Source: Rhodobacter sp. SGA-6-6
GTDB lineage: Bacteria > Pseudomonadota > Alphaproteobacteria > Rhodobacterales > Rhodobacteraceae
Length of the DNA stretch: 64,000 nucleotides
Direction of reading: 5' to 3'
Assembly: GCF_011043545.1 (NCBI RefSeq)
Contig: NZ_JAAKGP010000001.1
Span: forward strand, 558,001-622,000
The position numbers were made by a program, and so were the translations under genes. Shown piece after piece: positions 38,841-58,804 of the stretch (position 1 is the stretch's first letter; every line of letters starts with the position of its first letter). The notes under the pieces were generated by a model. That model ran no database searches, was not told where the DNA came from, and was given only the letters and a program-made list of their open reading frames with translations.

Positions 38841-38866
38841 AAGAAACGGCGGCGCCTCATGCGCCG
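38841..38866 (-). terminator. Hairpin at the end of the pxp operon
   Basis: CGGCGC-CTCAT-GCGCCG (38850-38866) contains the pxpC stop codon. On the minus strand the stem is followed by GCCGTTTCTTT, a moderate U-rich tail. It would end the operon running from the aminotransferase to pxpC. Confidence 0.5.
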
Positions 38867-41232: not shown

Positions 41233-41295
41233 CACCCCTCGCCCCCTGCCCGCGGCATCCTAGCAGGCGAACCGCGCCGGGGGCGAGAGCGCATC

Positions 41296-42932: not shown

Positions 42933-43069
42933 GATGGGCTTCCCCCGGGTTGGACGTTGGATCAGGTGCGGTCGCGGCCGACTATAGGCATCGCGCCGCG
43001 CCGGAGACGAGCGGAAATCGCAGGCTTTCCGCCGCTTCGTCGCCTGCCGGAGAGGCGGCGCAAGAAAAA

Positions 43070-43085
43070 GTAACGACACCGTTAC
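43070..43085. promoter_or_regulatory. Operator 1: GTAACG-ACAC-CGTTAC
   Basis: Perfect 6-bp arms, 4-base spacer. It lies upstream of the -35 hexamer of the hyu promoter. The arms are identical to those of operator 2, 56 bases away centre to centre. It lies between the divergent aminotransferase and hyuA genes, so it could affect both. Confidence 0.75.
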
Positions 43086-43093
43086 GAATCATC

Positions 43094-43122
43094 TTTACAG
43101 CTCCGGTTTTTCCGCCTCTATT
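43094..43122 (+). promoter_or_regulatory. Predicted sigma-70 promoter of the hyu-TRAP operon
   Basis: TTTACA (43094-43099), a 17-base spacer, TCTATT (43117-43122). The predicted start of transcription, about 43129, falls inside operator 2, as expected for a repressed promoter. Confidence 0.6.
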
Positions 43123-43125
43123 TCT

Positions 43126-43141
43126 GTAACGAAAGCGTTAC
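43126..43141. promoter_or_regulatory. Operator 2: GTAACG-AAAG-CGTTAC
   Basis: Same arms as operator 1. It ends 19 bases before the chosen hyuA start and four bases before an alternative ATG at 43146. A dimeric repressor bound here would cover the transcription start. The regulator family (LacI, GntR or TetR type) cannot be told from the site. Confidence 0.75.
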
Positions 43142-43160
43142 TGTCATGGAAGAGGCAAGC

Positions 43161-45254
43161 ATGAACCCGCGGATTCGCGTCGCATCCGATGTCGGAGGAA
43201 CCTTCACCGACAGCATCGCCTATGACGAGGATTCCCGGGTGATCACCGTCTCGAAGGTCTCGACCACGCCCGACAACCGGGCCCGCGGCACGGTCGAGGG
43301 GCTGCGCAAGGCGGTGGGGCTGCAGGGCGGCGACGGGCAGAACGTGGTCTATGTCGGCCATGGCATGACCACCGCGACCAATGCGGTGATCCAGCGCAAG
43401 GGCGCCCGCACCGCCTTTCTCACCAACACCGGCTTCCGCGACCTCTTGCTGATCGGCCGCCAGAACCGCCCGACCTTGTTCGACCTTCAGGTGGTGCGGC
43501 CCGAGCAACTGGTGCCGCAGGAACTGTGCTTCACCGCCGCCGGCCGCATCGGCGCCGACGGGGCCGAGATCGCGCCGCTGTCCGAAGAGGACGTGCGCGC
43601 CGCCGGGCGGGCGATGGCCGCGGCGGGGGTGGAAGCGGTGGCGATCCTGTTCCTGCATTCCTACGCCAACCCCGCGCACGAACGCCGGGCGCGCGACATC
43701 CTGGAGGAGATGCTGCCCGAGGCCGCCGTCTGCGCCTCGACCGACATCAATGCCGAGTTCCGCGAATACGAACGCGCCAGCACCACGGTGCTGAACGCCT
43801 ATCTGCGGCCGGTGATGAACACCTACCTGCGGTCGCTGTCGGGCTTCCTGCAGGATGCCGAGAAGGGGCTCGGCCTCGGCGGCGACAAGCCGGTGATGGT
43901 GATGGACGCCGCGGGCGGGCTGATGAGCCTGGAAAGCGCCCGGGCCAAGCCGGTGCATACCGTGCTGTCCGGCCCCGCCGGCGGCGTGGTGGCCAGCGCC
44001 CATGTCGCCGCGCTGGCCGGGGTGCCCGACATCATCACCATGGACATCGGCGGCACCTCCACCGACATCAGCCTGATCCGGGGCGGCCGCCCCGAAGTCA
44101 CCCGCAGCGCCAAGCTGGAAACGGTGCCGATCCGGCTGCCGGTGATCGACATCAACGCCATCGGCGCCGGCGGCGGCTCCATCGCCTGGATCGACGACGG
44201 CGGCGCCCTGCGCGTCGGCCCGATGAGCGCCGAGGCGGTGCCCGGCCCGGTCTGCTACGGCCGCGGCGGCACCGAGCCGACCGTCACCGACGCCAACCTG
44301 GTGCTCGGCCGCTTCGACGGCAATTCCCGGCTGGGGGGAGAGCTGCGGATGGACGTGGCCTCGGCCCGCGCCGCGATCCAGGAGAAGATCGCCGATCCGC
44401 TGGGGCTGAGCCTGGACGAGGCGGCGGCGGGCATCCTGCGGGTGGCGCACGCCAACATCGTGCGCGGCATCCGCGTCGTCTCGGTCGAACGCGGCTACGA
44501 CCCGCGCGACTTCGCCCTTGTCCCCTTCGGCGGGGCGGGGCCGATGCACGGCAGCCCGGTGGCGCGCGAGCTGCGGATGACCCGGGTGCTGGTGCCCCCC
44601 ACCCCCGGCATCCTCTGCGCGCTCGGCCAGCTGATCTCGGACCTGCGGCACGATTTCGTCGAAACCCATATCCTGCCCTATGCCGACCTGAGCGCCGAGG
44701 GCGCGGCCGGCCTGATCGGGGCGATGGTGGCGCGGGCGGACGAGCATCTGGCGCATGACGGCGTGCCTGTGGAGAAACGCTCGGTCGAGGTGCGGATCGA
44801 CATGCGCTACATCGGCCAGAGCTACGAGCTGGCGATCCCGGTGGACCTGGCGGACCCCGACTACTGGGCCAAGCTGCCCGAGGCCTTCCACCGGATGCAC
44901 CAGGCCCGCTTCGGCCATGCCGACCGCAAGGCCCCGATCGAGGTGGTCGGCATCGGCGCCACCGGCATCGGCCGCATCGACACGCCGCATCTGCCGCAAC
45001 TGCCCGCGGGCGACGGCACCCCCGCCCCCGAGGCGCGGGTGGGCGAGCGGGAAATCTATTTCGAGCCGCTGGACCCGTCCGAACAGGGCCGCCACCACAA
45101 GACCGCGGTCTACCGGCGCGAGGCGCTGCGGGCGGGCGACGTGATCCAGGGCCCGGCGGTGATCGAGGAAGTCTCTTCCACCACCATCCTTTACCCCGGC
45201 GACCGGCTGACGGCCCATGCCTCGGGCAATCTCATCGTGGAGGTCGCGCAATGA
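43161..45254 (+). CDS. hyuA: Hydantoinase/oxoprolinase subunit A (first copy)
   Basis: 697 residues, usual for HyuA. DVGGTFTDS (residues 10-18) opens the ASKHA-type N-terminal domain; AGGLMSLESARAKPVHTVLSGPAGGVVAS and TMDIGGTSTDISLI form the second phosphate-binding region, then GAGGGSIAWID, GPVCYGRGGTEPTVTDANLVLG, and FGGAGPMHG. With HyuB it uses ATP to hydrolyse cyclic amides such as hydantoins or oxoproline, or to carboxylate ketones; which one is not visible. I take the ATG at 43161 after AGAGG; 43146 is an alternative. First gene of a ten-gene operon. Confidence 0.92.
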   Translation: MNPRIRVASDVGGTFTDSIAYDEDSRVITVSKVSTTPDNRARGTVEGLRKAVGLQGGDGQNVVYVGHGMTTATNAVIQRKGARTAFLTNTGFRDLLLIGRQNRPTLFDLQVVRPEQLVPQELCFTAAGRIGADGAEIAPLSEEDVRAAGRAMAAAGVEAVAILFLHSYANPAHERRARDILEEMLPEAAVCASTDINAEFREYERASTTVLNAYLRPVMNTYLRSLSGFLQDAEKGLGLGGDKPVMVMDAAGGLMSLESARAKPVHTVLSGPAGGVVASAHVAALAGVPDIITMDIGGTSTDISLIRGGRPEVTRSAKLETVPIRLPVIDINAIGAGGGSIAWIDDGGALRVGPMSAEAVPGPVCYGRGGTEPTVTDANLVLGRFDGNSRLGGELRMDVASARAAIQEKIADPLGLSLDEAAAGILRVAHANIVRGIRVVSVERGYDPRDFALVPFGGAGPMHGSPVARELRMTRVLVPPTPGILCALGQLISDLRHDFVETHILPYADLSAEGAAGLIGAMVARADEHLAHDGVPVEKRSVEVRIDMRYIGQSYELAIPVDLADPDYWAKLPEAFHRMHQARFGHADRKAPIEVVGIGATGIGRIDTPHLPQLPAGDGTPAPEARVGEREIYFEPLDPSEQGRHHKTAVYRREALRAGDVIQGPAVIEEVSSTTILYPGDRLTAHASGNLIVEVAQ

Positions 45255-46840
45255 GCGCCGCTAGGAATTTCGACCCGATCCGCCTGGAAGTCCTGCGCAA
45301 CGCGCTGGAGGCGACGGCGCAGGAGATGGGCGTGGTGCTGCAGTTCACCTCGTTCTCGCCCAACATCAAGGAACGGATGGACGCCTCCTGCGCGATCTTC
45401 GACGCCCAGGGGCAACTGGTGGCGCAGGCCGAGCATGTGCCGGTGCACCTGGGGTCGATGCTGCGGGCGGTCCGGCCGGTGCTGGACCGGATGACGCAGC
45501 TGGAAGAGGGCGATGTCGCCATCGTCAACGATCCCTTCGTCGCCGGCGCCCACCTGCCAGACATCCTGCTGATCGCCCCGGTCTACATCGGCGGGCGCTG
45601 CATCGCCTATGTCGCCAACCGCGCCCACCATTCCGACGTGGGCGGGATGGAGCCGGGGTCGATGCCCGGCCGCTCGACCGAGATCTTCCAGGAAGGCATC
45701 ATCATCCCGCCGCTGCGGCTTTACCGGCAGGGTGTGGAACAGGAGGACATCCTGGCGCTGATCCTGGCCAATGTCCGCACCCCGGACGAACGCCGCGGCG
45801 ACATCAACGCCCAGCTGGCCTCGCTGCGGATCGGCATCCGGCGGCTGGAGGAGCTGGCGGAACGGTTCGGCGCCGAGGTGCTGGAGGACGGGCTGGCCGA
45901 GGTGCTGGACTATACCGAGCGGCGGATGCGCAAGCGGCTGGCCGAACTGCCCGTGGGCAGCTGGACCACCGAGGATTGCCTGGACGACGACGGCAGCAGC
46001 GAAGAGCCGGTGGTGATCAAGCTGCGGGTCGATGTCTCGCCCGAGGAGCTGGTCTTCGACTTCGAGGGATCGTCGCCGCAGCGCAAGGGCAACGTCAACG
46101 CCGTCGCGCCGATGACCTATTCGTCGATCTTCTACGCCATCAAGATCCTGACCGACGCCACCATGCCGCCGAACGCCGGCGTGCTGCGGCCGGTGCGGGT
46201 GAAGATCCCCAAGGGATCGTTCCTGGACGCGCAGCACCCCGCCGCGGTCTGCTCGGGCAATACCGAGACCACGCAGCGGGTGGCCGACACCGTGCTGCGG
46301 GCCTTCGCCCAGATCGCGCCGCACCGCATCGCCGCGGCCAGCCAGGGCACGATGAACCTGATCGGGGTGGGCGGCCGCGACCCGCGCTCGGGCAAGCCCT
46401 ATACCTATATCGAGACCATCGGCGGCGGCCAGGGCGGCCGGCCCTACGGCCCGGGGATGAGCGCGGTCCACGCCAACATGTCGAACACCCTGAACACCCC
46501 GATCGAGGCGCTGGAGATCACCTACCCGCTGCGCGTCGAACGCTACGAACTGCGCGACGGATCGTCCGGCGCCGGCAAGAACCCAGGGGGCGAGGGCGTG
46601 GTCCGCGCCATCCGCGTGGTCGGCCACGACGCCCGGGTCTCGCTGCAATCCGACCGCCGCCGGTTCGCGCCCTATGGGTTGCATGGCGGCGAAAGCGGGG
46701 CCAAGGGTCTGAACTGGATGCTGGATGCCGAAGGCACGCGGCGCGAGCTGCCCTCGAAAGGGTCGATCACGCTGAAGCATGACGAGGTCGTCGTGGTGGA
46801 AACGCCGGGCGGCGGGGGATGGGGGAAGGCGCAGGCCTGA
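45251..46840 (+). CDS. hyuB: Hydantoinase/oxoprolinase subunit B (first copy)
   Basis: 529 residues. The N-terminus FDPIRLEVLRNALEATAQEMGVVL and FSPNIKERMDASCAIFDAQGQLVAQAEHVPVHLGSM are family blocks, followed by GDVAIVNDPFVAGAHLPDILLIAPV, NRAHHSDVGGMEPGSMPG (metal-binding His region) and ALEITYPLRVERYELRDGSSGAGKNPGGEGVVR. It overlaps hyuA by ATGA. It is about 50 residues shorter than the second copy and shares only family-level similarity by eye, so the two pairs likely have different substrates. Confidence 0.92.
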   Translation: MSAARNFDPIRLEVLRNALEATAQEMGVVLQFTSFSPNIKERMDASCAIFDAQGQLVAQAEHVPVHLGSMLRAVRPVLDRMTQLEEGDVAIVNDPFVAGAHLPDILLIAPVYIGGRCIAYVANRAHHSDVGGMEPGSMPGRSTEIFQEGIIIPPLRLYRQGVEQEDILALILANVRTPDERRGDINAQLASLRIGIRRLEELAERFGAEVLEDGLAEVLDYTERRMRKRLAELPVGSWTTEDCLDDDGSSEEPVVIKLRVDVSPEELVFDFEGSSPQRKGNVNAVAPMTYSSIFYAIKILTDATMPPNAGVLRPVRVKIPKGSFLDAQHPAAVCSGNTETTQRVADTVLRAFAQIAPHRIAAASQGTMNLIGVGGRDPRSGKPYTYIETIGGGQGGRPYGPGMSAVHANMSNTLNTPIEALEITYPLRVERYELRDGSSGAGKNPGGEGVVRAIRVVGHDARVSLQSDRRRFAPYGLHGGESGAKGLNWMLDAEGTRRELPSKGSITLKHDEVVVVETPGGGGWGKAQA

Positions 46841-46907
46841 CCCGCGGATGAACGGAGAGAAGCCGAAAGCGGCCTTCCAGAAGGACCAATCTCAACAGGA
46901 GGTAAGA

Positions 46908-47909
46908 ATGAAAGACTTTTCGGGAAGCATCCGCGCGGCCATCGCCGCCCTGGCGCTCGGCGCCCTGGCGGCGCCGGTCTCGGCCGAGACCTGGCGCTTC
47001 GCCACCAAGATGCCCGCCGACAGCCCCGAGGGGCTGGTGTTCCAGTATTTCGCCGACCGGGTGGAAGAGCTTTCGGAAGGCGGCTTCGTCGTCCAGGTCT
47101 TCCCCTCCGAACAGCTGGGCACCGAGGCGGCGATCCTGGAGCAGCTGGAACTGGGCACGGTGAACCTTTACGCCGAGGACGCCTTCTTCCTGCAGAAATG
47201 GGTGCCGGACATCCGCTGGATCTCGATGCCCTTCATGTTCCCCGACCGCGAGAAGTGGCAGAGCTTCATGCACAGCGACCTGGTGAAGGGCTGGTTCGCC
47301 GAGGTCGAGGCCACCGCCGGCATCCGCCCGCTGGGCGACCCGACCGCGGTGATCCGCGGGCCCTATCGCGTGCTGGTCTCCTCCACCCCCGTCGCCGGGC
47401 TCGAGGACATCGGCAAGATGCGGCTGCGGATGTATCCCGACCAGCTGGCCATCGACGTCTGGACCTATCTCGGCGCCGACCTGCGGATGCTGGCCTGGAC
47501 CGAGACCTACGAGGGCCTCAAGAGCGGCATCGCCACCGCCACCACCAGCCCCGCCGCGCTGGTGGAAAGCATGAGGCACTACGAGGTCGCCCCCTATATC
47601 TCGCGCACCAACGAATACTGGCAGGGCATCGTCTTCGCCATGAACGCCGAGGCCTTCGACGGGCTGTCCGAGGAATACCAGCAGATCCTGCTGCAGGCCC
47701 ATGCCGATGCCGGCGCCTACAGCGCGCAGATCATGACCGAGGTGACCGACAAGATGCAGGCCAACCTCGAAGGCCAGGGCGTGACCTTCGTCGACTTCGA
47801 CATCCAGGGCGTCGTCGACCACATGGCCGGCTGGTATGACCAGCAGGAAGCCGCCGGCGCCCTGCCGAAGGGCCTGCTGGAGGCCGCCCGCGCCGCCTCG
47901 GCCGAATAA
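46908..47909 (+). CDS. TRAP transporter substrate-binding protein (DctP family)
   Basis: 333 residues with signal peptide MKDFSGSIRAAIAALALGALAAPVSA. The DctP core shows KMPADSPEGLVFQYFADRVEELSEG, VFPSEQLGTEAAILEQLELGTVN, and DIGKMRLRMYPDQLAIDVWTYLGA with the Arg that binds the ligand carboxylate. A strong AGGAGG ribosome binding site, the best in the operon, suits a receptor made in excess. TRAP receptors mostly bind carboxylates, so the imported compound probably carries an acid group. Confidence 0.93.
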   Translation: MKDFSGSIRAAIAALALGALAAPVSAETWRFATKMPADSPEGLVFQYFADRVEELSEGGFVVQVFPSEQLGTEAAILEQLELGTVNLYAEDAFFLQKWVPDIRWISMPFMFPDREKWQSFMHSDLVKGWFAEVEATAGIRPLGDPTAVIRGPYRVLVSSTPVAGLEDIGKMRLRMYPDQLAIDVWTYLGADLRMLAWTETYEGLKSGIATATTSPAALVESMRHYEVAPYISRTNEYWQGIVFAMNAEAFDGLSEEYQQILLQAHADAGAYSAQIMTEVTDKMQANLEGQGVTFVDFDIQGVVDHMAGWYDQQEAAGALPKGLLEAARAASAE

Positions 47910-47935
47910 GCGCACAAACAGCCAGGAAAAGCCCG

Positions 47936-48505
47936 ATGGACAGAACCAACGATGTGCAGGGGAGGGGATCGCCCCCTCCCAAGCCCTACATCCTGCGCCT
48001 GCTGGACCGTGTGCTGGATGCCGCGGCCACGATCTTCCAGACCTGCGCCGAGGTTCTGGTCGGCATCATGCTGCTGATCAACATCCTCAATGTCGGCAGC
48101 CGCAACCTGGGGGGACCGTCGCTCCTCTGGGTCTGGCCCTGGACCGCCACGCTGATGGTCTGGGCCGTCTTCCTGGCGTTCTACGTGATGTATCGCCGCA
48201 ACGTCGACATCAGCATGAGCTTCGTCGTCGAGCGGCTGGCGCCGGTCTGGCAGAAGGCGGCGACGATCCTGGCCCATCTCTGCGGGCTGGTCGTCGTCGG
48301 CCTGATCACGCTGGAAGCCCCGCAGATCCTGGCCCGTCAGGTCGGCGTGATGGAACTGGTCGGCCTGCAACGCTATGCGCTGTCAGTGCCGCTGCTGGTG
48401 TCCTCGGCGCTCTTGGTGCTGCATTTCCTGTCCGAGATCGCCAGCATCCTTCTGGGCCACGCCTCCATCGCGCCCCCCGGAGATGACGAGGCCCTGCTAT
48501 GGTAG
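47936..48505 (+). CDS. TRAP transporter small permease (DctQ family)
   Basis: 189 residues, four membrane helices (about 35-60, 68-90, 110-135, 150-175). EVLVGIMLLINILNVGSRNLGG and PWTATLMVWAVFLAFYVMYRRNVDISMSFVVERL are the typical DctQ segments. It lies 26 bases after dctP and overlaps dctM by seven bases. Confidence 0.9.
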   Translation: MDRTNDVQGRGSPPPKPYILRLLDRVLDAAATIFQTCAEVLVGIMLLINILNVGSRNLGGPSLLWVWPWTATLMVWAVFLAFYVMYRRNVDISMSFVVERLAPVWQKAATILAHLCGLVVVGLITLEAPQILARQVGVMELVGLQRYALSVPLLVSSALLVLHFLSEIASILLGHASIAPPGDDEALLW

Positions 48506-49803
48506 CCTTCACCATCTTCGGCATCTTCATCCTGCTGATGCTGCTCCGGGTGCCGGTGGTCGTCGCCATGGCGGTCGGCACGCTGGCGGGCATGGTGCAG
48601 CTGGGCTTCGCCACCAGCCTGTCCAAGCTTTACGTCTTCCCGCTGCAGATGCTGGAAGGCATCAACAGCCCGGCGCTGCTGGCGGTGCCGTTCTTCATCC
48701 TCGCCGGCCATTTCATGACCGCGATCGGGCTGACCGAGCGGATCTTCGCGCTGGCCAATGCCTTCGTCGGCCACATGCGGGCCGGTCTGGCGCAGGTGAA
48801 CGTGGTCTGCTCGCTGTTCTTCGGCGGCATCACCGGCTCGGCCGTGGCCGATGTCGCCGGGATCGGCAACCTGGTCATCGCCCAGATGAAGAAGCGGGGC
48901 TATCCCGCCTCCTTCGCCTCGGCGCTGACGGTGGCAAGCTCGGTGATCGGGCCGACCATGTGGCCCTCGGTGCCGCTGCTGATCTACGCCTTCTCAGCCT
49001 CGGTCTCGGTCGAGCGGATGTTCCTGGCGGGGATCGGTCCGGGCGTGCTGATCATCCTGTCGCTGATGGTCTACAACCGCTTCGTCGCCGTGCGCTACAA
49101 CGTGCCGCAGACCCCGCGCCCCCCTGCGCGCGAGATCGGCGGCATGGTGATGCGCTCCGGCTGGGCGCTGCTGGCGCCGCTGATCATCATCGGCTCGATC
49201 ATCACCGGCCTTGCCACGCCGATGGAGGCCGGGGTCATCGCCTGCCTCTACACGCTGGTCCTGGGCGTGGCCTACCGCAGCCTGTCCTTCGCCCGCATCC
49301 GCCATGCGGTCGGCGATACCGTCATCCTGTTCGGCTCGGTCCTGATGATCATCGGCGTCTCGACGGCGATGAGCTGGGTGCTGACCTACGACCGGGTGCC
49401 GCAGACCCTTGCCGCGGCGGTGCTGGACCTGACCGACAACAAATACCTGTTCATGCTGATCGCGGTGGTGTTCTTCCTGGTGATCGGCACGGTGCTGGAG
49501 AACATCCCGGCGCAGGTGGTGCTGACGCCGATCATGCTGCCGCTGGTCGACCATTTCGGCATCGACCGGGTGCATTTCGGCATGGTGCTGGTCTACGGCC
49601 TGCTGATCGGCATCGTCTCCCCACCTGTCGGGGTGGCGCTGTTCATCGTGACCAAGATCGCGCGCATCTCCTTCGAGGAGGTCTGCAAGTCGGTCATTCC
49701 CTTCATGATCCCCCTGATCGGGGTGCTGTTCGCCATCGCCTTCTTCCCGCAGGTGGTGCTGTGGCTCCCTGATCTCATCCTTGGCGCGGAGGCCGGACCA
49801 TGA
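48499..49803 (+). CDS. TRAP transporter large permease (DctM family)
   Basis: 434 residues, about twelve helices. LRVPVVVAMAVGTLAGM, the NSPALLAVPFFILAGHFM block, FFGGITGSAVADVAGIGNL and ASSVIGPTMWPSVPLLIYA are DctM signatures, as is PVGVALFIVTKIARISFEEV near the end. It couples substrate import to the sodium gradient with DctP and DctQ. Its stop overlaps the start of the second hyuA (ATGA), which ties transport to the enzymes. Confidence 0.94.
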   Translation: MVAFTIFGIFILLMLLRVPVVVAMAVGTLAGMVQLGFATSLSKLYVFPLQMLEGINSPALLAVPFFILAGHFMTAIGLTERIFALANAFVGHMRAGLAQVNVVCSLFFGGITGSAVADVAGIGNLVIAQMKKRGYPASFASALTVASSVIGPTMWPSVPLLIYAFSASVSVERMFLAGIGPGVLIILSLMVYNRFVAVRYNVPQTPRPPAREIGGMVMRSGWALLAPLIIIGSIITGLATPMEAGVIACLYTLVLGVAYRSLSFARIRHAVGDTVILFGSVLMIIGVSTAMSWVLTYDRVPQTLAAAVLDLTDNKYLFMLIAVVFFLVIGTVLENIPAQVVLTPIMLPLVDHFGIDRVHFGMVLVYGLLIGIVSPPVGVALFIVTKIARISFEEVCKSVIPFMIPLIGVLFAIAFFPQVVLWLPDLILGAEAGP

Positions 49804-51908
49804 CCGCAAGCACCCTGCGGATCGCTGCCGATGTCGGCGGAACCTTCACCGATGTCGCGATGATCCGCGGCGACAAGAGCATTGCAACGCGCAAGGTCTC
49901 GTCCACCCCCGACGACTACAGCCGGGGCGTGGTCCGGGGCATCGTCGAACTGCTGGAGGTGGAGGGGCTGTCGGCCGAAGAGGTGGGCGAGGTGCTGCAC
50001 GCCTCGACCGTGGCGACCAACACCATCCTGGAGGGGAAGGGCGCCAGGACCGCGCTGCTGACCACCGCCGGCTTCCGCGACATCCTGGAGATGCGGCGCG
50101 TGCGGGTGCCACGGCTCTACGACCCGCTCTACCGCAAGCCGCCGGCGCTGGTGCCCCGGCGCTGGCGCTTCGAGGTCGAGGAGCGGATGGACCACCGCGG
50201 CAACGTCCTGACCGCGCTGGACGAGACCACCGTCCACCGCGCGCTGGACGCCGTGGCCGCCGAGGGGATCGAGGCCATCGCCGTCTGCCTGCTGCATTCC
50301 TACGCCAACCCGGCGCATGAGCGGCGGATCGGCGAGATCATCCGGGAGCGGTTTCCGGCCATGTTCGTCTCGCTTTCGGTCGACATTCTGCCGGAGATCC
50401 GCGAATACGAACGCAGCTCCACCACCGCGATCAACTCCTACATCGGCCCGCCGGTGCGCGGCTATCTGAACGCACTGGCGGAACGGCTGCACGCCGCCGG
50501 GCTGCCGCGGCAGTTCTTCATGATGCATTCGGCGGGCGGCATCCTCGATGCCCGCACGGTGATGGAACGGCCGGCGCAGATCGTCGAATGCGGCCCGGCG
50601 GCGGGCGCCCTCGGCGCCAGCAAGGTGATGGGGCGGGCGGGCGAGGGCGACGCGATCTCCTTCGACATGGGCGGCACCACCGCCAAGGCGGCGCTGATCG
50701 AGAACGGCCGGCTGGTCACCACCGACGATTACGAGGTCGGCGGCGGCATCTCCTTGTCGTCGCGGCTGGCCAAGGGCGGCGGCTATGCGCTGAAGCTGCC
50801 GGTGATCGACATTTCCGAGGTCGGCGCCGGCGGCGGCTCCATCGTCTGGATCGACCGGGCGGGCGGGCTGAAGGTCGGCCCGCAAAGCGCCGGCTCGGTG
50901 CCCGGCCCGGCCTGCTATGGCCAGGGCGGCGACCGGCCCACGGTCACCGATGCCAACGTGGTCCTGGGCTATCTGAACCCGCAGGCGCTGGCCGGGGGGT
51001 CGGTTCCCATCGACGCCGGGCTCAGCCGGGCGGTGCTGGCGCGGGACGTGGCGGAGCCTCTGGGCCTCGACCTCGACGCCGCGGCCTTCGGGGTGCACGA
51101 GCTGATCACCAACGTGATGACCCGCGGGGTGAAGTCCGTCACCACCTACCGCGGCCGCGACCCGCGCGAGTTCACCATGATCGCCTTCGGCGGCAACGGC
51201 GGGGTGCATTCCGTCTCGCTGGCCCGCGCGCTTGGCGTGCGACGCGTGGTGGTGCCGCCGGGGTCGGGCGTGTTCTCCGCCCTCGGCCTGCTTTACGCCG
51301 ATGTGGAGACCAGCGCCTCGGCCGCCTTCCTTTGCCCGCTGGAGAAGCTGACCACCGACCTGCTGGCCCCCCGCTTCGCCGAACTGGTCGCGCGGGCCAG
51401 CCACGAGATCGGCCGCAGCACCGAAGAGTTGCAGATCGAGCGCCGCGCCGATTTCCGCTATGCCGGGCAGGCCTTCGAACTGACCCTGCCCTTCGAGGAA
51501 AGCGCTGCCCTGTCGGCCGGCGACCTGACCGCCGTCCGCGACCGCTTCGAGGACGAACACGAACGGCTTTACGGCTACCGGCTGGCGCGCAACGCGGTGG
51601 AGCTGGTCACCCTGCGCGTCACTGCCCGGCTGGCCGGGGCGGGGCAGGTGGTGTCGGACTACCGCCCGGCACAGGGCGGCGAGGCCCGGCCCGACCGCAT
51701 GGTCCATTTCGGCCCGGCCTTCGGCGGCCGCGTCGCCACCCGCGTGGTGGACCGCGCCGCGCTGGCGGGCGGGCCGAAGCAGGGGCCGCTGATCGTCGAG
51801 GAATACGACGGCACCACCGTGGTGCCGCCGGATTGCCGCGCCGCGCTGGACCCCCTGGGCAACATCGTCATCGACCTTCCCGACCCCGCGCAGGAGACCA
51901 GGCCATGA
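49800..51908 (+). CDS. hyuA: Hydantoinase/oxoprolinase subunit A (second copy)
   Basis: 702 residues. ADVGGTFTDVAMI (about 10-22), AGGILDARTVMERPAQIVECGPAAGALGAS and SFDMGGTTAKAALI, then GAGGGSIVWID and GPACYGQGGDRPTVTDANVVLGYLNP. The second phosphate motif reads GGTTAK where the first copy has GGTSTD, the main visible difference, and GGNGGVHS replaces GGAGPMHG. So the copies are diverged paralogues, not a recent duplication. It overlaps dctM and hyuB2. Confidence 0.92.
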   Translation: MTASTLRIAADVGGTFTDVAMIRGDKSIATRKVSSTPDDYSRGVVRGIVELLEVEGLSAEEVGEVLHASTVATNTILEGKGARTALLTTAGFRDILEMRRVRVPRLYDPLYRKPPALVPRRWRFEVEERMDHRGNVLTALDETTVHRALDAVAAEGIEAIAVCLLHSYANPAHERRIGEIIRERFPAMFVSLSVDILPEIREYERSSTTAINSYIGPPVRGYLNALAERLHAAGLPRQFFMMHSAGGILDARTVMERPAQIVECGPAAGALGASKVMGRAGEGDAISFDMGGTTAKAALIENGRLVTTDDYEVGGGISLSSRLAKGGGYALKLPVIDISEVGAGGGSIVWIDRAGGLKVGPQSAGSVPGPACYGQGGDRPTVTDANVVLGYLNPQALAGGSVPIDAGLSRAVLARDVAEPLGLDLDAAAFGVHELITNVMTRGVKSVTTYRGRDPREFTMIAFGGNGGVHSVSLARALGVRRVVVPPGSGVFSALGLLYADVETSASAAFLCPLEKLTTDLLAPRFAELVARASHEIGRSTEELQIERRADFRYAGQAFELTLPFEESAALSAGDLTAVRDRFEDEHERLYGYRLARNAVELVTLRVTARLAGAGQVVSDYRPAQGGEARPDRMVHFGPAFGGRVATRVVDRAALAGGPKQGPLIVEEYDGTTVVPPDCRAALDPLGNIVIDLPDPAQETRP

Positions 51909-53641
51909 AAAGGATCGACCCGGTTCGACTGGAAGTCCTGAAGAACGCCTTCGACGCCATCGCCGACGAGATGGCGCTGATGCTGATGCGGGCGGCCTAT
52001 TCGCCCATCGTGCGGGATTCGATGGATTATTCCACCGCGCTTTGCGACGCCAGGGGCCAGACGCTGGCGCAGGGCGTCACCACGCCGATGCACCTGGGCA
52101 GCTTCTACGACGCGATGCTGCACCTGATGGAGAAGTTCGCGGACGACATCCACGAAGGCGACATCTTCATCGGCAACGACCCCTATGCCGCCGCCGGCCA
52201 GCACCTGCCCGACATCTACATCATCGAGCCGCTGTTCCACTCCGGCCGGCTGGTGGCCTGGGCGACGACCATCGCCCACCATGCCGATGTCGGCGGCATC
52301 GTCCCGGGCAGCAACGCCCTCGGCGCGACCGAGATCTATCAGGAGGGGTTGCGGCTGCCGTTCCTGAAGCTGCAGTCGAAAGGGGTGCCGAACCAGACCA
52401 TCTGGGACATCATCGCCCTGAACGTGCGGGTTCCCGATCTGGTCACCGGCGACCTGCGCGCGCAGATGGCGGCCTGCCAGTCCTGCCGCCGGTCGTTCAA
52501 CGACCTGGTGGCCCGCTACGGCATCGACGAGGTGCTGGCCTATGCCGAGGAACTGCACGAATACGCCGAGCGGCTGACCCGGGCCGAGATCGCCGAACTG
52601 CCGGACGGCGACTACAGCTTCACCGACCACATCGACGGGCTGGGAGAAAACCCCGAGCCGATCGTCTTCCAGGTCAAGGTCTCGGTCCGCGGCGACCGCA
52701 TCCTGATCGACTTCGCCGGATCGTCGAAACAGGTGCAGGGCGGGGTCAACACGCCGCTCCCGTTCACCAAGGCCAGCGTCTACACCGCGCTGCGCTCGGT
52801 CATGCAGTCGGATATCCCGAACTGCCACGGCTTCCAGCGCGCCATCGATGTGACGGCGCCGCCGGGCACCGTGGTCAACTCGGTCCACCCCGCCCCCTGC
52901 GGCGCGCGGGGGATCACCGGCTATCGCGTCATCGACGCGGTCTTCGGCGCGCTGGCCGGCCCGCTGCCCGAGCGCGTCACCGCCGACGGCATGGGCGGAT
53001 CGACCGTGCCCACCTTCGGCGGCTGGCACGAGGGCAAGCCCTTCGTCTTCACCGAAACCGTCATGGGCACCTGGGGCGCCGGGGCGCATCACGACGGCCA
53101 GGTCGGCGTGCCGCACATGGGCGCCAACCAGGCCAACGTGCCCATCGAGATGATCGAGACCAACTACCCGCTGCGCATCCGCCGTTACGGCACCATTCCC
53201 GACAGCGGCGGGCCGGGGCGGCACCGCGGCGGGGCCTCCTTCGTGCGGGAATACGAATTCCTCGCCGACGAAGGCGTGCTGTCGCTGAGGTCCGACAAGG
53301 CGGCCTTCCCGCCGCACGGGCTGGCGGGCGGCCATTGCGGCCGCGGCCCGCTCAGCCGCCTGACCACCGCGGAAGGCAGCCGCACCCTGCCGGTGCTGCT
53401 GACCACCCCGGTCACCGTCCGCCGCGGCGACGTGTTCTGCCACCTCTCGCCCTCGGGCGGCGGCTACGGCGACCCGCTCGACCGGCCGGTGGCCGAGATC
53501 GTCGAGGATCTGGCGGACGGCATCATCACCCCAGCCCATGCCGAAGAGGTCTATGGCGTGGTGATGGCAGGCGGCGCCCCGGACCCCGCGGCCACCGAAC
53601 GGCGGCGGGCGGAGATCCGGGCGCGGGGGGCGGGGGCATGA
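51905..53641 (+). CDS. hyuB: Hydantoinase/oxoprolinase subunit B (second copy)
   Basis: 578 residues, the full length usual for HyuB. DPVRLEVLKNAFDAIADEMALMLMRAAYSPIVRDSMDYSTALCDARGQTLAQ, EGDIFIGNDPYAAAGQHLPDIYI, TTIAHHADVGGIVPGS, then PIEMIETNYPLRIRRYGTIPDSGGPGRHRGGASFVREYEF and the C-terminal HLSPSGGGYGDPLDRP. The YSPIVRDSMDYSTAL block matches the N-methylhydantoinase and acetone/acetophenone carboxylase-like branch as well as hydantoinases. It overlaps the genes on both sides by ATGA. Confidence 0.92.
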   Translation: MKRIDPVRLEVLKNAFDAIADEMALMLMRAAYSPIVRDSMDYSTALCDARGQTLAQGVTTPMHLGSFYDAMLHLMEKFADDIHEGDIFIGNDPYAAAGQHLPDIYIIEPLFHSGRLVAWATTIAHHADVGGIVPGSNALGATEIYQEGLRLPFLKLQSKGVPNQTIWDIIALNVRVPDLVTGDLRAQMAACQSCRRSFNDLVARYGIDEVLAYAEELHEYAERLTRAEIAELPDGDYSFTDHIDGLGENPEPIVFQVKVSVRGDRILIDFAGSSKQVQGGVNTPLPFTKASVYTALRSVMQSDIPNCHGFQRAIDVTAPPGTVVNSVHPAPCGARGITGYRVIDAVFGALAGPLPERVTADGMGGSTVPTFGGWHEGKPFVFTETVMGTWGAGAHHDGQVGVPHMGANQANVPIEMIETNYPLRIRRYGTIPDSGGPGRHRGGASFVREYEFLADEGVLSLRSDKAAFPPHGLAGGHCGRGPLSRLTTAEGSRTLPVLLTTPVTVRRGDVFCHLSPSGGGYGDPLDRPVAEIVEDLADGIITPAHAEEVYGVVMAGGAPDPAATERRRAEIRARGAGA

Positions 53642-55344
53642 CCGGCAGTCCCAAGGGCCGCGGCATCGCCGGGCGGCCCACCAACTACGGCGACCCGGAG
53701 TTCGCCGCCTACCTCCGCCGCTCCTTCGCCAAGTCGCAGGGCTATTCCGACGATGCGCTCGGCCGGCCCATCGTCGGCATCGCCTACACGCCCTCGGGCT
53801 TCAACAACTGCCACCGGCATTTCCCCGAACTGCTGGAGGCGGTGAAGCGCGGCGTCCTGCTGGCCGGGGCGCTGCCGGTGGAGTTTCCCACCATCTCGCT
53901 GGGCGAGGTCTTCACCAGCCCGACCAGCCTGAAGTTCCGCAACCTGATGGCGCTGGACACCGAAGAGATGATCCGCGCCCAGCCGATGGATGCCGTCGTG
54001 CTGATGGGCGGCTGCGACAAGACCGTGCCGGCGCAGCTGATGGGCGCGGTCTCGGCCGACATCCCGGCGATCCAGCTGGTCGCCGGGCCGATGTCGACCG
54101 GGCGCCACCGCGGCGAAAGGCTGGGCGCCTGCACCGATTGCCGCCGCTTCTGGGCGAAGTATCGCGCCGGCGAGATCGACGCCGAGGAGATCGGCGCGGT
54201 CGAGGGGCGGCTGGCCACCACCGCGGGCACCTGCGCGGTGATGGGCACCGCCTCCACCATGGCCTGCCTGGCGGAAACGCTGGGGATGAGCCTGCCGGGC
54301 TGCGCCGCCATTCCCGCCGTCCACGCCGACCGCCTGCGCATGGCCGAAGCCACCGGCAAGCGGGCGGTGGAGCTGATCGGCACCGGCCTGACGCCCTCGA
54401 AGATCGTCACCCCGGCGGCGGTGCGCAACGCGCTGCGGATGCTGCTGGCGCTGAGCGGGTCGACCAATGCGCTCTTGCACCTGACCGCCATCGCCCGACG
54501 CGCGGGCATCCGCATCGACCTGCAGGAGTTCAACCGCCTGTCCGAGGAAACCCCGGTGCTGGTGGACCTGAAGCCGGTCGGCCCGCACTACATGGAGGAC
54601 CTGTTCCACGCCGGCGGCATCCCTGCCGTGCTGAAGGAACTTGCGCCCCTGCTGGAGCGCGAGGCCCTGACCGTCTCGGGCCGGACCATGGGCGAGTTGC
54701 TGGACCGGCCGCTGGCCGATCCGGTTGGCCGCGACGTGATCCGCTCGCGGACGGAGCCGGTGTCGCCGGTCGGCGGGCTGGTGACGGTGTTCGGCAGCCT
54801 CGCCCCCGGCGGGGCGGTGGTGAAGCGGGCGGCCGCCGACCCGCGGCTGATGGAGCACGAGGGGCGGGCGGTGGTCTTCTCCTCGCTGGCCGATCTGGCG
54901 GCGAGGATCGACGATCCGGCGCTGGAGGTGACGGCGGACGACGTGCTGGTGCTGCAGAACGCCGGGCCGCGCAGCGATTCCGGGATGCCCGAGGCGGGCT
55001 ATCTGCCGATCCCGAAGAAGCTGGCGCAGGCCGGGGTGAAGGACATGCTGCGCATCTCCGACGCCCGCATGTCCGGCACCGCCTATGGCGCCATCGTCCT
55101 GCATGTCACGCCCGAGGCCGCGGTCGGCGGCCCGCTATCGCTGGTGCGGAACGGCGACCGCATCCGCATCAGCGTCGCCGCCCGCAGCCTGGACCTGCTG
55201 GTGCCGCCGGAGGAACTGGCCCGCCGCGCCGCGCAGGCGGAGGCGGCGGCGGACCGCAGACGGCGGGGCTACGACTGGCTCTACAACAGCCATGTGCTGC
55301 AGGCCGACGAGGGTGCCGACTTCGATTTCTGCGGAAAGGAGTAA
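53638..55344 (+). CDS. IlvD/Edd family dehydratase, sugar-acid type
   Basis: 568 residues. Three Cys placed as cluster ligands: Cys58 in FNNCHRH, Cys126 in GGCDKT and Cys199 in TAGTCAVMGTAST; Lys128 follows the second. Spacing and length match the pentonate/hexonate dehydratases with a 2Fe-2S cluster rather than 6-phosphogluconate dehydratase. GPRSDSGMPEAGYLPIPKKL and DARMSGTAYGAIVLHVTPEA are the C-terminal signatures. It removes water from a 2,3-dihydroxy acid to give a 2-keto-3-deoxy acid. It overlaps hyuB2 (ATGA), so the pathway intermediate is probably a polyhydroxy acid. Confidence 0.9.
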   Translation: MTGSPKGRGIAGRPTNYGDPEFAAYLRRSFAKSQGYSDDALGRPIVGIAYTPSGFNNCHRHFPELLEAVKRGVLLAGALPVEFPTISLGEVFTSPTSLKFRNLMALDTEEMIRAQPMDAVVLMGGCDKTVPAQLMGAVSADIPAIQLVAGPMSTGRHRGERLGACTDCRRFWAKYRAGEIDAEEIGAVEGRLATTAGTCAVMGTASTMACLAETLGMSLPGCAAIPAVHADRLRMAEATGKRAVELIGTGLTPSKIVTPAAVRNALRMLLALSGSTNALLHLTAIARRAGIRIDLQEFNRLSEETPVLVDLKPVGPHYMEDLFHAGGIPAVLKELAPLLEREALTVSGRTMGELLDRPLADPVGRDVIRSRTEPVSPVGGLVTVFGSLAPGGAVVKRAAADPRLMEHEGRAVVFSSLADLAARIDDPALEVTADDVLVLQNAGPRSDSGMPEAGYLPIPKKLAQAGVKDMLRISDARMSGTAYGAIVLHVTPEAAVGGPLSLVRNGDRIRISVAARSLDLLVPPEELARRAAQAEAAADRRRRGYDWLYNSHVLQADEGADFDFCGKE

Positions 55345-55347
55345 GGC

Positions 55348-56292
55348 ATGGCCAAGGTCCTCTGCCTCGGCGAGGTGCCCGGCTGGCTGCTGGCCGACCT
55401 GACGGCCGCGGGGCATCTGGCCGTGACCGAACCGCAGCCGGATGTCTCCGCCGTGATCCGCCGCGCCGGCAAGGTGGACAGGGCGCTGATGGACCGGCTG
55501 CCGCGGCTGGAGATGATCTCCAACTTCGGCGTCGGCTACGATCTGGTGGATGCGGAGGAGGCGCTGCGGCGGGGCATCGCCGTGGGCTACACGCCGGACG
55601 TCCTGAACGACGAGGTGGCCGACCTGACTTTGGGCCTGCTGCTGGCGACGCTGCGGCAGATCCCGCAGGGCAACCGGCACCTGCTGCATGGGCTCTGGCC
55701 CGCGGGGCATTACCCGCTGACGCCAACCCTGCGCGGCCGGACCATCGGCCTGATCGGCATGGGCCGGATCGGCAGCCGGATCGCCCGGCGGCTGGCGGGC
55801 TTCGACGTGCCGGTGGTCTACCACAGCCGCAGCCCCCGGCCCGAGACCGGGCTGCGCCATTACCCCGACCTGCTGGAGATGGCCCGCGACGTGGACACGC
55901 TGATCGCCATCCTGCCCGGCGGCCCCGGGACCCGGCACATCATCGACCGCCGGGTGCTGGCCGCGCTCGGCCCCGCGGGGGTGGTGATCAACGTCGCCCG
56001 CGGCTCGGTGCTGGACGAGGAGGCGCTGATCGAGGCGCTGGAGGGCGGCACGATCCTCGCCGCCGGCCTCGACGTGTTCGAGAACGAGCCGAACCCGGAC
56101 CCGCGGCTGCTGAACCTGCCGAACTCGCTGGCCACGCCGCACCTGGGATCGGGCACCCATCATACCCGGCGGCTGATGTGGGAGCTGGTGCGGGACAACC
56201 TTCTGGCCTGGTTCTCCGGCACGGAAATGCCGGCGGCCATTCCCGGCTCGCCCCGGCAGGCCCGCCCCCCGCCCGGAAAGGCAAGCGCATGA
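55348..56292 (+). CDS. D-isomer-specific 2-hydroxyacid dehydrogenase
   Basis: 314 residues. The catalytic N-terminal part ends ISNFGVGYDLVDAEEALRRGI; the Rossmann motif is GLIGMGRIGSRIARRL (about 131-146), with the Arg in NVARGSVLDEEAL, Glu in DVFENEPNPD and the His in ATPHLGSGTHHT. It most resembles glyoxylate/hydroxypyruvate reductases. It could reduce the glyoxylate- or keto-acid-like product of the aldolase encoded next. Start three bases after the dehydratase stop; overlaps the next gene by ATGA. Confidence 0.9.
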   Translation: MAKVLCLGEVPGWLLADLTAAGHLAVTEPQPDVSAVIRRAGKVDRALMDRLPRLEMISNFGVGYDLVDAEEALRRGIAVGYTPDVLNDEVADLTLGLLLATLRQIPQGNRHLLHGLWPAGHYPLTPTLRGRTIGLIGMGRIGSRIARRLAGFDVPVVYHSRSPRPETGLRHYPDLLEMARDVDTLIAILPGGPGTRHIIDRRVLAALGPAGVVINVARGSVLDEEALIEALEGGTILAAGLDVFENEPNPDPRLLNLPNSLATPHLGSGTHHTRRLMWELVRDNLLAWFSGTEMPAAIPGSPRQARPPPGKASA

Positions 56293-57188
56293 CCCGGACC
56301 TCCCTGCGCGGCGTGATCGCCGCCATCGTCACCCCGGCAACCCCCGGGCTGGACCCCGACGCGCCGCGCTTCCTGCGCCATGCCCGGCAGCTGCTGGCCG
56401 AGGGCGCCGACGGGCTGAACGTCCTCGGCACCACCGGCGAGGCGACCTCGTTCTCGCTGGACCAGCGGCGCGGGCTGATGGAGGCCGCCGCCGCCGGGCT
56501 GCCGCGCGACAGGCTGATGGTGGGGACCGGCGCCGCCGCCACCCGCGATGCGGTGGAGCTGACGCGCCATGCCGGCGACTGCGGCTTTGCCGGGGCGCTG
56601 GTGCTGCCGCCGTTCTACTACAAGGGCGTCGGCACCGAGGGCATCCTGCGTTACTTCGACGCCATCGCCGAGGGCAGCGCGGCAAGCGGCATCCCGCTTT
56701 ACCTCTACAACTTCCCGGCCCTGTCCGGCGTGCCCTATACCGAGGACCTGGTCTCGGCGCTGGTGGCCCGGTTCGGCGGGCGGATCGCCGGGCTGAAGGA
56801 TTCCTCGGGCGACATCGGCTATGCCCGCCGGATCGCAGCGCTGCCCGGGGGGCTGGACGTCTTCCCCTCTTCCGAGGCGGTGCTGGACCAGGCCCGCGCC
56901 GGCGGCCCCTTCGCGGGCTGCATCTCGGCCACCGTCAATGTCAGCGCCCGCCACGCCGCGGCCGCTCTGCATGGAGGGGACGACGCGGCCCTGCAGCGCG
57001 CCACCGCCATCCGGGCGCTGTTCGACGGCAAGCCGCTGGTGCCCTGGCTGAAGCAGGCGGTCGCGGCGCGGATGGGCGATCCCGGCTACGGGCCGGTGCT
57101 GCCGCCCTTCGTGCCGCCCGATCCCGCGGCGGTGGCGACGCTGGTCACAGAGCTGGAGAAGATCGACAAGGCGCCCGCCCGGCCATGA
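56289..57188 (+). CDS. DHDPS/N-acetylneuraminate lyase superfamily aldolase or dehydratase
   Basis: 299 residues, TIM barrel. LGTTGEATSF carries the GTTGE motif (47-51), YLYNFPALSG the catalytic Tyr140, and GLKDSSGD the Schiff-base Lys170. Class members of this kind next to an IlvD/Edd dehydratase usually split or dehydrate 2-keto-3-deoxy sugar acids. True dihydrodipicolinate synthase is less likely in this catabolic setting. The Arg that binds the second carboxylate in DapA is not evident. Last gene of the operon. Confidence 0.88.
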   Translation: MTRTSLRGVIAAIVTPATPGLDPDAPRFLRHARQLLAEGADGLNVLGTTGEATSFSLDQRRGLMEAAAAGLPRDRLMVGTGAAATRDAVELTRHAGDCGFAGALVLPPFYYKGVGTEGILRYFDAIAEGSAASGIPLYLYNFPALSGVPYTEDLVSALVARFGGRIAGLKDSSGDIGYARRIAALPGGLDVFPSSEAVLDQARAGGPFAGCISATVNVSARHAAAALHGGDDAALQRATAIRALFDGKPLVPWLKQAVAARMGDPGYGPVLPPFVPPDPAAVATLVTELEKIDKAPARP

Positions 57189-57230
57189 CCCGCATCGTGG
57201 ATCACGCCCCTGCGGCACCGGGAGCGGGTC

Positions 57231-58043
57231 ATGCAGGCCGCCGCTGACATCCTGATGCAGCCGCAGGCGGTGGCGCGGGGCGTTTCCATCGCGCTGCTGG
57301 TGGTGCTTGCCACCCAGGCGATCCGCTGGTTCGGCCCCTCGATCGGCGGGCTGATCGCCTCGATGCCGATGATCACCGGCCCGGCCTATTTCATCCTGCT
57401 GGCGCAGGGCGACATCGGCTTCACCGCCGAGGCGGCGGCCTATTCGCTGATCTACATCGGCGCGGCGCAGGTCTTCCTGCTGGTCTTCATCGCCACGCTG
57501 CGCCGCATCCACCCGGCGGCGGCCTTCCTGCTGGCGGGGCTGGCCTGGTTCGCCGCGATCCTCGCGCTCGGCCTGCTGCCGCCCTGGCCTTGGCTGGGGT
57601 TGGCGGGCTTCGTGCTGATCACCGTCCTGACCCGCCGGCTGGCCCGCCGCTTCGTGCGGATCACCGGCGTCACCGTCACCGCCGACCGGGCCTGGATCAC
57701 CGCGATCAAGGGTGCCAGCGCGGGGGTATTGGTCGCCTTCTCCACCTCGGTCGCCGCCAGCATCGGCACCAGTTGGAGCGGGGTGCTGCTGGTCTTTCCC
57801 ATCGCCTTCGTGGTTCTTTGCGCCACCGCGCTGAAAATCTACGGAAAGGATGTGCTGATCGCCACGCTCTATTCCGCTATGCGCGGCAGCAGCAGCCTTG
57901 CCGCATTCTGTTTCGTCTTGGCGGCCGGACTTCATGCAATGACTCCCTGGCCCGCATTCGCCGCCGCCGTCTGCGCCGCAATCGCGACGACGCTGGCGCT
58001 CGGCTGGCTGGTGTCGCGGCCTTCGGCCGGGTCCGGCAGCTGA
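57231..58043 (+). CDS. Uncharacterised polytopic membrane protein
   Basis: 270 residues with about eight hydrophobic segments, GGLIASMPMITGPAYFILLAQG near residue 38 and SWSGVLLVFPIAFVVLCATALKIYGKDVLIATLYSAMRGSSSLAAF toward the end, which look like two related halves of a small transporter. I do not recognise the family. The start has GGGAGCGGGTC directly before the ATG. It follows the aldolase gene by 42 bases on the same strand and could export or import a pathway compound. Confidence 0.7.
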   Translation: MQAAADILMQPQAVARGVSIALLVVLATQAIRWFGPSIGGLIASMPMITGPAYFILLAQGDIGFTAEAAAYSLIYIGAAQVFLLVFIATLRRIHPAAAFLLAGLAWFAAILALGLLPPWPWLGLAGFVLITVLTRRLARRFVRITGVTVTADRAWITAIKGASAGVLVAFSTSVAASIGTSWSGVLLVFPIAFVVLCATALKIYGKDVLIATLYSAMRGSSSLAAFCFVLAAGLHAMTPWPAFAAAVCAAIATTLALGWLVSRPSAGSGS

Positions 58044-58138: not shown

Positions 58139-58801
58139 ATGGTAGCCATGAATTCCAGTCCCGCCCCGGCCCCGGCCGCCGAAAACCTGAACGGGCTGCG
58201 CACCAGGCGGACGCGCGACAAGATTCTGGCCGCCGCCCGGCTGGAATTCGTCGCGCGCGGGCTGGAAGGCACGACGATGGAATCGATCGCCCGCATCGCC
58301 AAGGTCAACAAGGCGCTGGTCTACCGGCATTTCACCAGCAAGGACCTGCTGTTCCAGGAGGTGCTGGCCCACAGCTACCGCGAAATGCGCGCGCGCGAGG
58401 CCGAGCTTGGCTTTTCCGAAGATCCGGTGATCGCGCTGGATCAATTATGCGCCTTCACGCTGGAATATTACGTTTCCAATCCGGATTTCCTGATCCTCGT
58501 CGGGATCGAAAACCTGCACAAGGGCGAACATATCCGGCGCATTCCGCTGGAGGACCTTGGCGTCGGCAGCCTGTTGCGGATCATGAATACCGTCTACGAC
58601 CGCGGCGTCGTGGAGGGCAAGTTCCGCCCCGGCGTCGATCCGGTGGAATTGTGGCTGCTGTTGTCGTCGCTGTGCTGGTTCACGGTGGCGACCTCTTATA
58701 CCGTCGACGTGACTTTCGGCCGGAACATGCTGTCGCCTGAAGAACTGGCGACCCGCCGCGGCAATATCCAGGAAATGGTCCGGCGCTTCCTGCAGAAATA
58801 G
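58139..58801 (+). CDS. TetR/AcrR family regulator
   Basis: 220 residues from the ATG at 58139; an ATG at 58148 in frame is equally possible, as neither has a strong ribosome binding site. The N-terminal HTH is RDKILAAARLEFVARGLEGTTMESIARIAKVNKALVYRHFTSKDLLFQEVLA (about 27-78). The C-terminal ligand domain begins SYREMRAREAELGFSEDP and is rich in aromatic and hydrophobic residues. It lies between the hyu operon and the convergent amidohydrolase; it could control either. No GTAACG-N4-CGTTAC site lies near its own start. Confidence 0.88.
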   Translation: MVAMNSSPAPAPAAENLNGLRTRRTRDKILAAARLEFVARGLEGTTMESIARIAKVNKALVYRHFTSKDLLFQEVLAHSYREMRAREAELGFSEDPVIALDQLCAFTLEYYVSNPDFLILVGIENLHKGEHIRRIPLEDLGVGSLLRIMNTVYDRGVVEGKFRPGVDPVELWLLLSSLCWFTVATSYTVDVTFGRNMLSPEELATRRGNIQEMVRRFLQK

Positions 58802-58804
58802 CGG

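Follow-up and report, generated by a model that had tools for sequence, protein, structure and literature searches.

The ten-gene operon and its two Hyu pairs

The window analysed here is a stretch of 64,000 nucleotides from Rhodobacter sp. SGA-6-6 (contig NZ_JAAKGP010000001.1, positions 558,001 to 622,000), and our subject is an operon on its forward strand that joins two hydantoinase/oxoprolinase (Hyu) gene pairs, the genes of a tripartite ATP-independent periplasmic (TRAP) importer and three genes for hydroxy-acid enzymes. An open reading frame (ORF) check of the window found all ten ORFs intact on the + strand, and in a Pfam profile search all ten proteins matched their named families above the cut-offs. 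The operon and the elements proposed to control it are as follows.

43070..43085, no strand: palindrome 1, GTAACGACACCGTTAC, proposed operator between the divergent aminotransferase gene and hyuA1
43126..43141, no strand: palindrome 2, GTAACGAAAGCGTTAC, proposed operator some 20 bases ahead of the probable start of hyuA1
43161..45254 (longest ORF from 43146), +: hyuA1, ATP-binding subunit of Hyu pair 1; Pfam Hydant_A_N, Hydantoinase_A and Hydant_A_C
45251..46840, +: hyuB1, metal-binding subunit of Hyu pair 1, 529 aa; Pfam Hydantoinase_B, 678 bits
46908..47909, +: dctP, TRAP periplasmic receptor; Pfam DctP
47936..48505, +: dctQ, TRAP small permease; Pfam DctQ
48499..49803, +: dctM, TRAP large permease; Pfam DctM and NCBIfam dctM, above cut-off
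49800..51908, +: hyuA2, ATP-binding subunit of Hyu pair 2; Pfam Hydantoinase_A
51905..53641, +: hyuB2, metal-binding subunit of Hyu pair 2, 578 aa; Pfam Hydantoinase_B
53638..55344, +: ilvD, IlvD/Edd family hydroxy-acid dehydratase; Pfam ILVD_EDD, NCBIfam PRK06131 subfamily
55348..56292, +: D-2-hydroxyacid dehydrogenase gene; Pfam 2-Hacid_dh and 2-Hacid_dh_C
56289..57188, +: dapA-family gene, class I pyruvate-aldolase-like enzyme; Pfam DHDPS
58148..58801, +: TetR-family regulator gene, proposed to encode the palindrome binder; Pfam TetR_N (PF00440, above cut-off) and TetR_C_29

The spacings between neighbouring genes are, in operon order, -4, 67, 26, -7, -4, -4, -4, 3 and -4 bases. The initial annotation had described ten genes on one strand with overlaps or gaps below 70 bases, and the reading frames, the Pfam matches and the spacings (largest gap 67) agree with this. 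Its extent of 43070-57188 holds for the gene content, but base 43070 is the first base of palindrome 1 and not a gene start; the description also did not reach as far as the upstream palindrome pair or the TetR gene (58148-58801). The start of hyuA1 is more likely at 43161 than at 43146, because the orthologues in Ectorhizobium quercum (locus L016) and in genomes G758 and G794 begin at residue 6 of the longer frame. No NCBIfam equivalog cut-off was reached by the Hyu, IlvD, dehydrogenase or DapA-type proteins, which fell into broad groups only. A sigma-70-type promoter scan of 41000-60000 gave no site anywhere, not even in front of hyuA1, and is therefore of no help in deciding between shared and separate promoters.

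The residue differences between the two Hyu pairs are those already pointed out in the initial annotation: HyuA1 carries DIGGTSTD and HyuA2 DMGGTTAK, and the HyuB proteins are 529 and 578 residues long. Two D-x-GGT phosphate motifs are kept in each HyuA, at residues 15 and 300 in HyuA1 (DVGGT and DIGGT) and at 11 and 289 in HyuA2. The adenosine motif GxxPGP lies at 365 in HyuA2; HyuA1 deviates from the strict pattern and has a loosened form in which VPGP, read by eye, is kept. Hydantoinase_B matched the two HyuB proteins with 678 and 571 bits against a Pfam cut-off of 26.8. Residues D44, H101, D104 and H126 of HyuB1 align with the metal ligands of caprolactamase given in PMC8453981, and this Asp-His-Asp-His site is the same in all 42 aligned HyuB proteins, both window copies included. 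In a tree of 42 HyuB proteins, which excludes two further ones with internal stops and in which four long-branch rows are of unsure place, six HyuB1 orthologues (100/100) and four HyuB2 orthologues (100/98) formed separate supported clades. The two pairs are thus distinct lineages, which makes either two steps or two substrates likely. Two distinct steps had been proposed before; the distinctness of the pairs stands, and the steps now share their place with a second substrate. The genome holds five HyuB genes in all.

Both hydrolysis of cyclic amides and carboxylation of ketones had been named earlier as possible Hyu activities. Among solved structures, the closest relatives of the Hyu proteins, in a ranking that covered all of them except HyuA1, were N-methylhydantoinase (7hk5, the top match) and caprolactamase (6yra), and carboxylases were weaker. 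The idea that the pairs are ATP-dependent ketone or aldehyde carboxylases, like acetone or acetophenone carboxylase, draws on their common superfamily and on the NCBIfam acetophenone carboxylase models, which were matched at lower score. However, HyuB1 scored 272 bits with N-methylhydantoinase, 235 with caprolactamase, 93 with acetophenone carboxylase and 42 with acetone carboxylase, and none of the ten operon proteins matched a carboxylase gamma or epsilon subunit (Pfam, E 0.001). We therefore regard carboxylases as very improbable, and of the two activities the ring-opening one stands: both Hyu pairs look like ATP-dependent cyclic-amide hydrolases. The NCBIfam caprolactamase cut-off of 1000 bits was missed by both HyuA (582 and 476) and both HyuB proteins (288 and 313), and no carbamoylase or hydantoin racemase was matched by Pfam among the ten.

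The TRAP genes dctP, dctQ and dctM are present together, each above its Pfam cut-off, and DctP is 68% identical to its Ectorhizobium orthologue. The best solved relative of DctP is the TRAP receptor 4pc9, with whose arginines R150 and R174 of DctP align. We take these arginines to be the ones that hold the ligand carboxylate in 4pc9, and 4pc9 itself to be an aldonate binder, a point in favour of the integrated pathway discussed below. A structure prediction for DctP from a two-row alignment (window and Ectorhizobium) had a mean pLDDT (predicted local distance difference test score) of 35.7, too low to be of use. Among more distant relatives of HyuB2, DctM was found in the stretch at 8 of 20 loci, several of these stretches being short contigs, and Hyu genes near TRAP genes are thus common.

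Palindromes, the TetR gene and orthologous loci

Two copies of the palindrome GTAACG-N4-CGTTAC lie between the divergent aminotransferase gene and hyuA1. No other exact copy is present in the 4.29 Mb genome, and a control with the reversed pattern gave 0. When up to two mismatches were allowed, the window had 2 matches where 0.29 were expected, a number reached in 3 of 100 shuffles.

Short peptide patterns of HyuB2, which detect close relatives only, were run against genome contigs and gave two orthologous loci, L016 in Ectorhizobium quercum and L017 (genome G687) in Azorhizobium oxalatiphilum. Searches in samples of public genomes, on which all genome counts given here are based, found HyuB1 at the limits used in 1 of 248 genomes of the family, that of the strain itself, and in 4 of 297 of the order of Ectorhizobium, which added G758, G794 and G906. 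Relatives of HyuB2 at up to 62% identity were present in 7 of 295 and 12 of 385 genomes, the strain's own being included in both counts. Taken with the HyuB tree, the Hyu genes of the window thus group with those of another order, which suggests horizontal transfer. HyuB1 relatives in Thermomicrobium (51%) and Haloferax (48%) had no helpful gene context in the two records examined.

Hyu pair 1 is present in all six orthologous loci, counting our own, and pair 2 in four; TRAP genes occur in two, an ABC importer in two others, IlvD in two, and the dehydrogenase and DapA-type genes in this genome alone. The hyuA1 orthologues are 71-75% identical, and those of hyuA2, in three other loci, 64-71%. 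In E. quercum a divergent tetR gene is followed by the palindrome and hyuA1-hyuB1-dctPQM-hyuA2-hyuB2, after which come a short-chain dehydrogenase/reductase (SDR) gene, an oppositely oriented GntR gene and ilvD. G687 and G906 have tetR and a palindrome, then an ABC importer whose receptor is of the SBP_bac_8 family, then a second palindrome and hyuA1-hyuB1-hyuA2-hyuB2, so that the ABC genes stand between tetR and hyuA1. In G758 and G794 the order is palindrome, hyuA1-hyuB1 and tetR. A one-mismatch form of the palindrome was found just upstream of hyuA1 in all five other loci. A TetR gene is in the neighbourhood in all six, 1 kb past the operon in our genome, and the homologues of the five others are 41-59% identical to it. 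A matrix built from the nine palindrome sites scored these sites at 20-28 bits and the next site in any locus at no more than 9.5 (shifted overlaps aside), which serves as a consistency check only, because the matrix derives from the same nine sites.

Judging from the six loci, the constant unit across species is the palindrome with hyuA1-hyuB1 and a tetR gene nearby, and the importer, Hyu pair 2 and the end enzymes appear to be exchangeable.

The end enzymes and the proposed role of the operon

The IlvD protein belongs to the PRK06131 subfamily of NCBIfam (823 bits against a cut-off of 539), missed the L-arabinonate dehydratase equivalog cut-off of 882 with 692 bits, and has dihydroxyacid dehydratase and L-arabinonate dehydratase as its best solved relatives. 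Those of the dehydrogenase are NADPH-dependent glyoxylate/hydroxypyruvate reductases. The DapA-type protein reached 111 bits against the dapA equivalog cut-off (4-hydroxy-tetrahydrodipicolinate synthase) of 206 and carries the stretches LKDSSG and YNFPALSG, which we regard as marks of the class I lyases, N-acetylneuraminate lyase among them.

The initial annotation had read the operon as a single integrated pathway. Its substrate would be an acidic, polyhydroxylated lactam or hydantoin derived from a sugar acid, which enters the cell and has its ring opened by one or both Hyu pairs; IlvD would then remove water, the DapA-type enzyme would cleave the product, and the dehydrogenase would reduce a keto acid. 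The tight joining of the ten genes and the membership of IlvD in a hydroxy-acid dehydratase subfamily speak for it, as do three observations in other genomes: an IlvD gene (61% identical) close after the Hyu genes in E. quercum, weak DapA-family genes (27-29%) near Hyu genes on two plasmids (L047 and L049, among ten plasmid stretches), and a 2-hydroxyacid dehydrogenase gene behind DctM of a Hyu-TRAP set in another genus (L022). Against this, a search of the five other orthologous loci gave no dehydrogenase or DapA gene in any of them, and IlvD is missing from four. The ilvD gene of E. quercum stands behind its own GntR gene, which is flanked by matching AT-rich inverted repeats (12679-12703 and 13580-13605), and is therefore probably a separate unit. 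These repeats are perhaps GntR operators, one of them in front of ilvD.

The same separation appeared in a wider set. Relatives of the window IlvD passing the limits were present in 20 of 228 genomes of the family (own included) and in 39 of 219 of the order of Ectorhizobium. In the stretches around 20 of the best (68-74%; ten best per list, with G784 of the second list passed over; two stretches below 13 kb), Hyu genes were found in none, a DapA-type gene in one (33%) and a similar dehydrogenase in one (31%), both at least 6 kb away. Conversely, neither IlvD nor DapA was found near the 20 more distant HyuB2 loci, among them the short contigs mentioned above, and IlvD was absent from the ten plasmid stretches. 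The Hyu pairs and the dehydratase-aldolase part thus occur largely apart in relatives, an outcome that the initial annotation itself had listed as refuting its reading. Conservation lends the integrated pathway no support, and we regard it as unlikely.

A patchwork of two unrelated routes on one promoter would have the Hyu-TRAP-Hyu part serve a cyclic amide and the end enzymes a plain sugar acid taken up by this or another importer. It agrees with the lack of the end module in related Hyu loci, the one IlvD excepted, and with IlvD relatives that have other partners, as in L137, where IlvD is accompanied by genes for an aldehyde dehydrogenase, a thiamine pyrophosphate (TPP) enzyme and a TctA/TctC importer. 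The L137 set is likely a hydroxy-acid pathway, and similar gene sizes were seen in L139, L141 and L134. However, hyuB2 and ilvD overlap by 4 bases, as do the dehydrogenase and dapA genes, only 3 bases separate ilvD from the dehydrogenase gene, and no second palindrome lies between the Hyu part and the end enzymes. This arrangement we consider doubtful.

The reading that we favour, to which we give about even credence, is an operon for the catabolism of an acidic cyclic amide of the lactam or hydantoin type, controlled by TetR, which probably acts as a repressor, and with a hydroxy-acid end that was added locally. What can be read directly from the DNA is the order of the genes, the pair of palindromes, the recurrence of a tetR gene and the presence of two distinct Hyu pairs whose metal sites and ATP phosphate motifs are intact. 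The TRAP system would import a lactam or hydantoin bearing a carboxylate; HyuA1 would activate the amide with ATP and the metal site of HyuB1 complete the hydrolysis, and Hyu pair 2 might open a further ring, a different isomer or some derived product. TetR would leave the two palindromes in response to the ligand or a product, and the dehydratase, dehydrogenase and DapA-type enzyme would probably convert the hydroxylated chain, once opened, into pyruvate plus a short aldehyde or keto acid. Our guess is that a pyroglutamate-type lactam, for instance of the opine-lactam kind, is the best fit among known natural substrates. The case for a polyhydroxylated substrate comes from this one genome.

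Several points weigh against the TetR-controlled operon as favoured here. The binding of TetR to the palindromes is proposed from the position and recurrence of the palindrome, and we count this step among them. With two mismatches allowed, L016 and L017 had one match each against 0.28 and 0.11 expected, and at least one such match appeared in 27 and 10 of 100 shuffles, respectively, which is not rare by chance; since a lone relaxed match is not telling, the weight of the palindrome lies in its position directly before hyuA1 in every locus. The TetR homologues of two loci are just 41-43% identical. G758 and G794 hold pair 1 alone in the stretch, and G758 has a gene for a lactate/oxalate-type major facilitator superfamily (MFS) transporter (below cut-off) about 4 kb upstream, where a two-component pair was also seen. 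The adjacency of pxpA to the aminotransferase gene in the divergent run described below is not conserved in the relatives checked. Finally, the coupling of the end enzymes to hyuB2 in our operon is an argument that they share a role here.

A more specific proposal also seems improbable to us: two enzymes would open, in two ATP-driven steps, a single acidic molecule that contains two cyclic amide bonds, such as a lactam to which a hydantoin or another lactam is fused or joined, and the same operon would then dehydrate and cleave its hydroxylated carbon chain, all built on an exchangeable TetR-HyuAB core. We found no described example of such a two-step opening with dehydration and cleavage, nor any account of operons combining a hydantoinase with a TRAP transporter, whether alone, with a dihydroxy-acid dehydratase or with a sarcosine oxidase, in a literature search whose coverage took in few subscription papers and some sources in part.

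The operon shares features with several known systems. With N-methylhydantoinase/HyuAB of the hydantoinase/oxoprolinase family it has in common the HyuA-HyuB make-up, ATP motifs and metal ligands, but it has two pairs instead of one, TRAP genes between them and no carbamoylase or racemase match. The caprolactamase CapAB of Pseudomonas jessenii (PMC8453981) is of the same family with the same D-x-GGT motifs and Asp-His-Asp-His site, whereas the Hyu proteins of the operon lie below the caprolactamase cut-off. Hyu pairs with importer genes are also found on Ti plasmids (pTiEU6; pTiS4, pTiAB2/73), where, according to PMC6733357 and PMC8554961, they have been proposed to act on lactam opines and the pTiEU6 pair lies near putrescine-type ABC genes. 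That ABC set is, in our own comparison, similar to the SBP_bac_8 sets of two orthologous loci. The Ti plasmids differ in having LysR (pTiEU6) and opine genes, whereas this operon has TetR, TRAP and hydroxy-acid enzymes, and their opine role is itself a proposal. The operon also resembles non-phosphorylative sugar-acid routes in that it joins a member of the IlvD subfamily with a DapA-family enzyme, but the L-arabinonate dehydratase and dapA cut-offs were missed and Pfam matched no aldehyde dehydrogenase among the ten proteins.

Few Hyu-type genes have an assigned substrate (PMC8453981) although the genes are common, and solving the substrate of this operon would assign two Hyu clades at once. 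The core, the likely switch and the exchangeable parts are defined well enough for testing: loci with pair 1 alone allow the two Hyu pairs to be told apart, and the clean palindrome with the TetR protein is a ready-made ligand sensor.

Genes around the operon

The operon is flanked by the following features.

38857..42932, -: divergent run of aminotransferase, RidA, PxpA, PxpB and PxpC genes; NCBIfam matches, with PxpB, PxpC and RidA below cut-offs
57231..58043, +: gene for a hydrophobic protein of 270 residues, after a 42-base gap behind dapA
58805-63984, -: Amidohydro_3 enzyme and ABC transporter set with an SBP_bac_8 receptor, facing the TetR gene

The protein at 57231-58043 had no Pfam or NCBIfam match and no tblastn match in the related stretches. 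The ABC transporter (60495-63984) was rejected as a part of the system, its receptor having no match to the receptors ahead of hyuA1 in G687 and G906; weak matches (27%) were seen in L047, L049 and another gene set of G906.

The divergent run is possibly co-controlled through the palindromes. Its aminotransferase matches PRK06207, and pxpABC are 5-oxoprolinase genes, a third ATP-dependent lactamase-type system beside the two Hyu pairs. The aminotransferase was found in 9 of 248 genomes of the family at the limit used, own included, and among the eight others Hyu genes were in the stretch in two (L022, L079); the stretches L074 (11.5 kb) and L078 (5.1 kb) end at contig ends. The stretches of the two closest relatives (87%; G087, G127) had no Hyu genes. 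In L022 (genome G173) the aminotransferase-RidA pair is also divergent from the Hyu-TRAP operon, with two genes between. Of 27 plasmid records, six were examined and five of these had Hyu genes, but four of the records had been picked as prior Hyu matches. A general link of the pair to Hyu genes was rejected, as it is present in some genomes only. On plasmids of Paracoccus, Agrobacterium, Neorhizobium and Pseudosulfitobacter (L046, L047, L049, L051) the pair lies near PurU and Hyu genes, and L046, L047 and L049 also carry FolD and sarcosine-oxidase-like genes, perhaps for a pathway of N-methyl compounds. A TauD-family dioxygenase gene is located near the operon at 35709-36857 (-).

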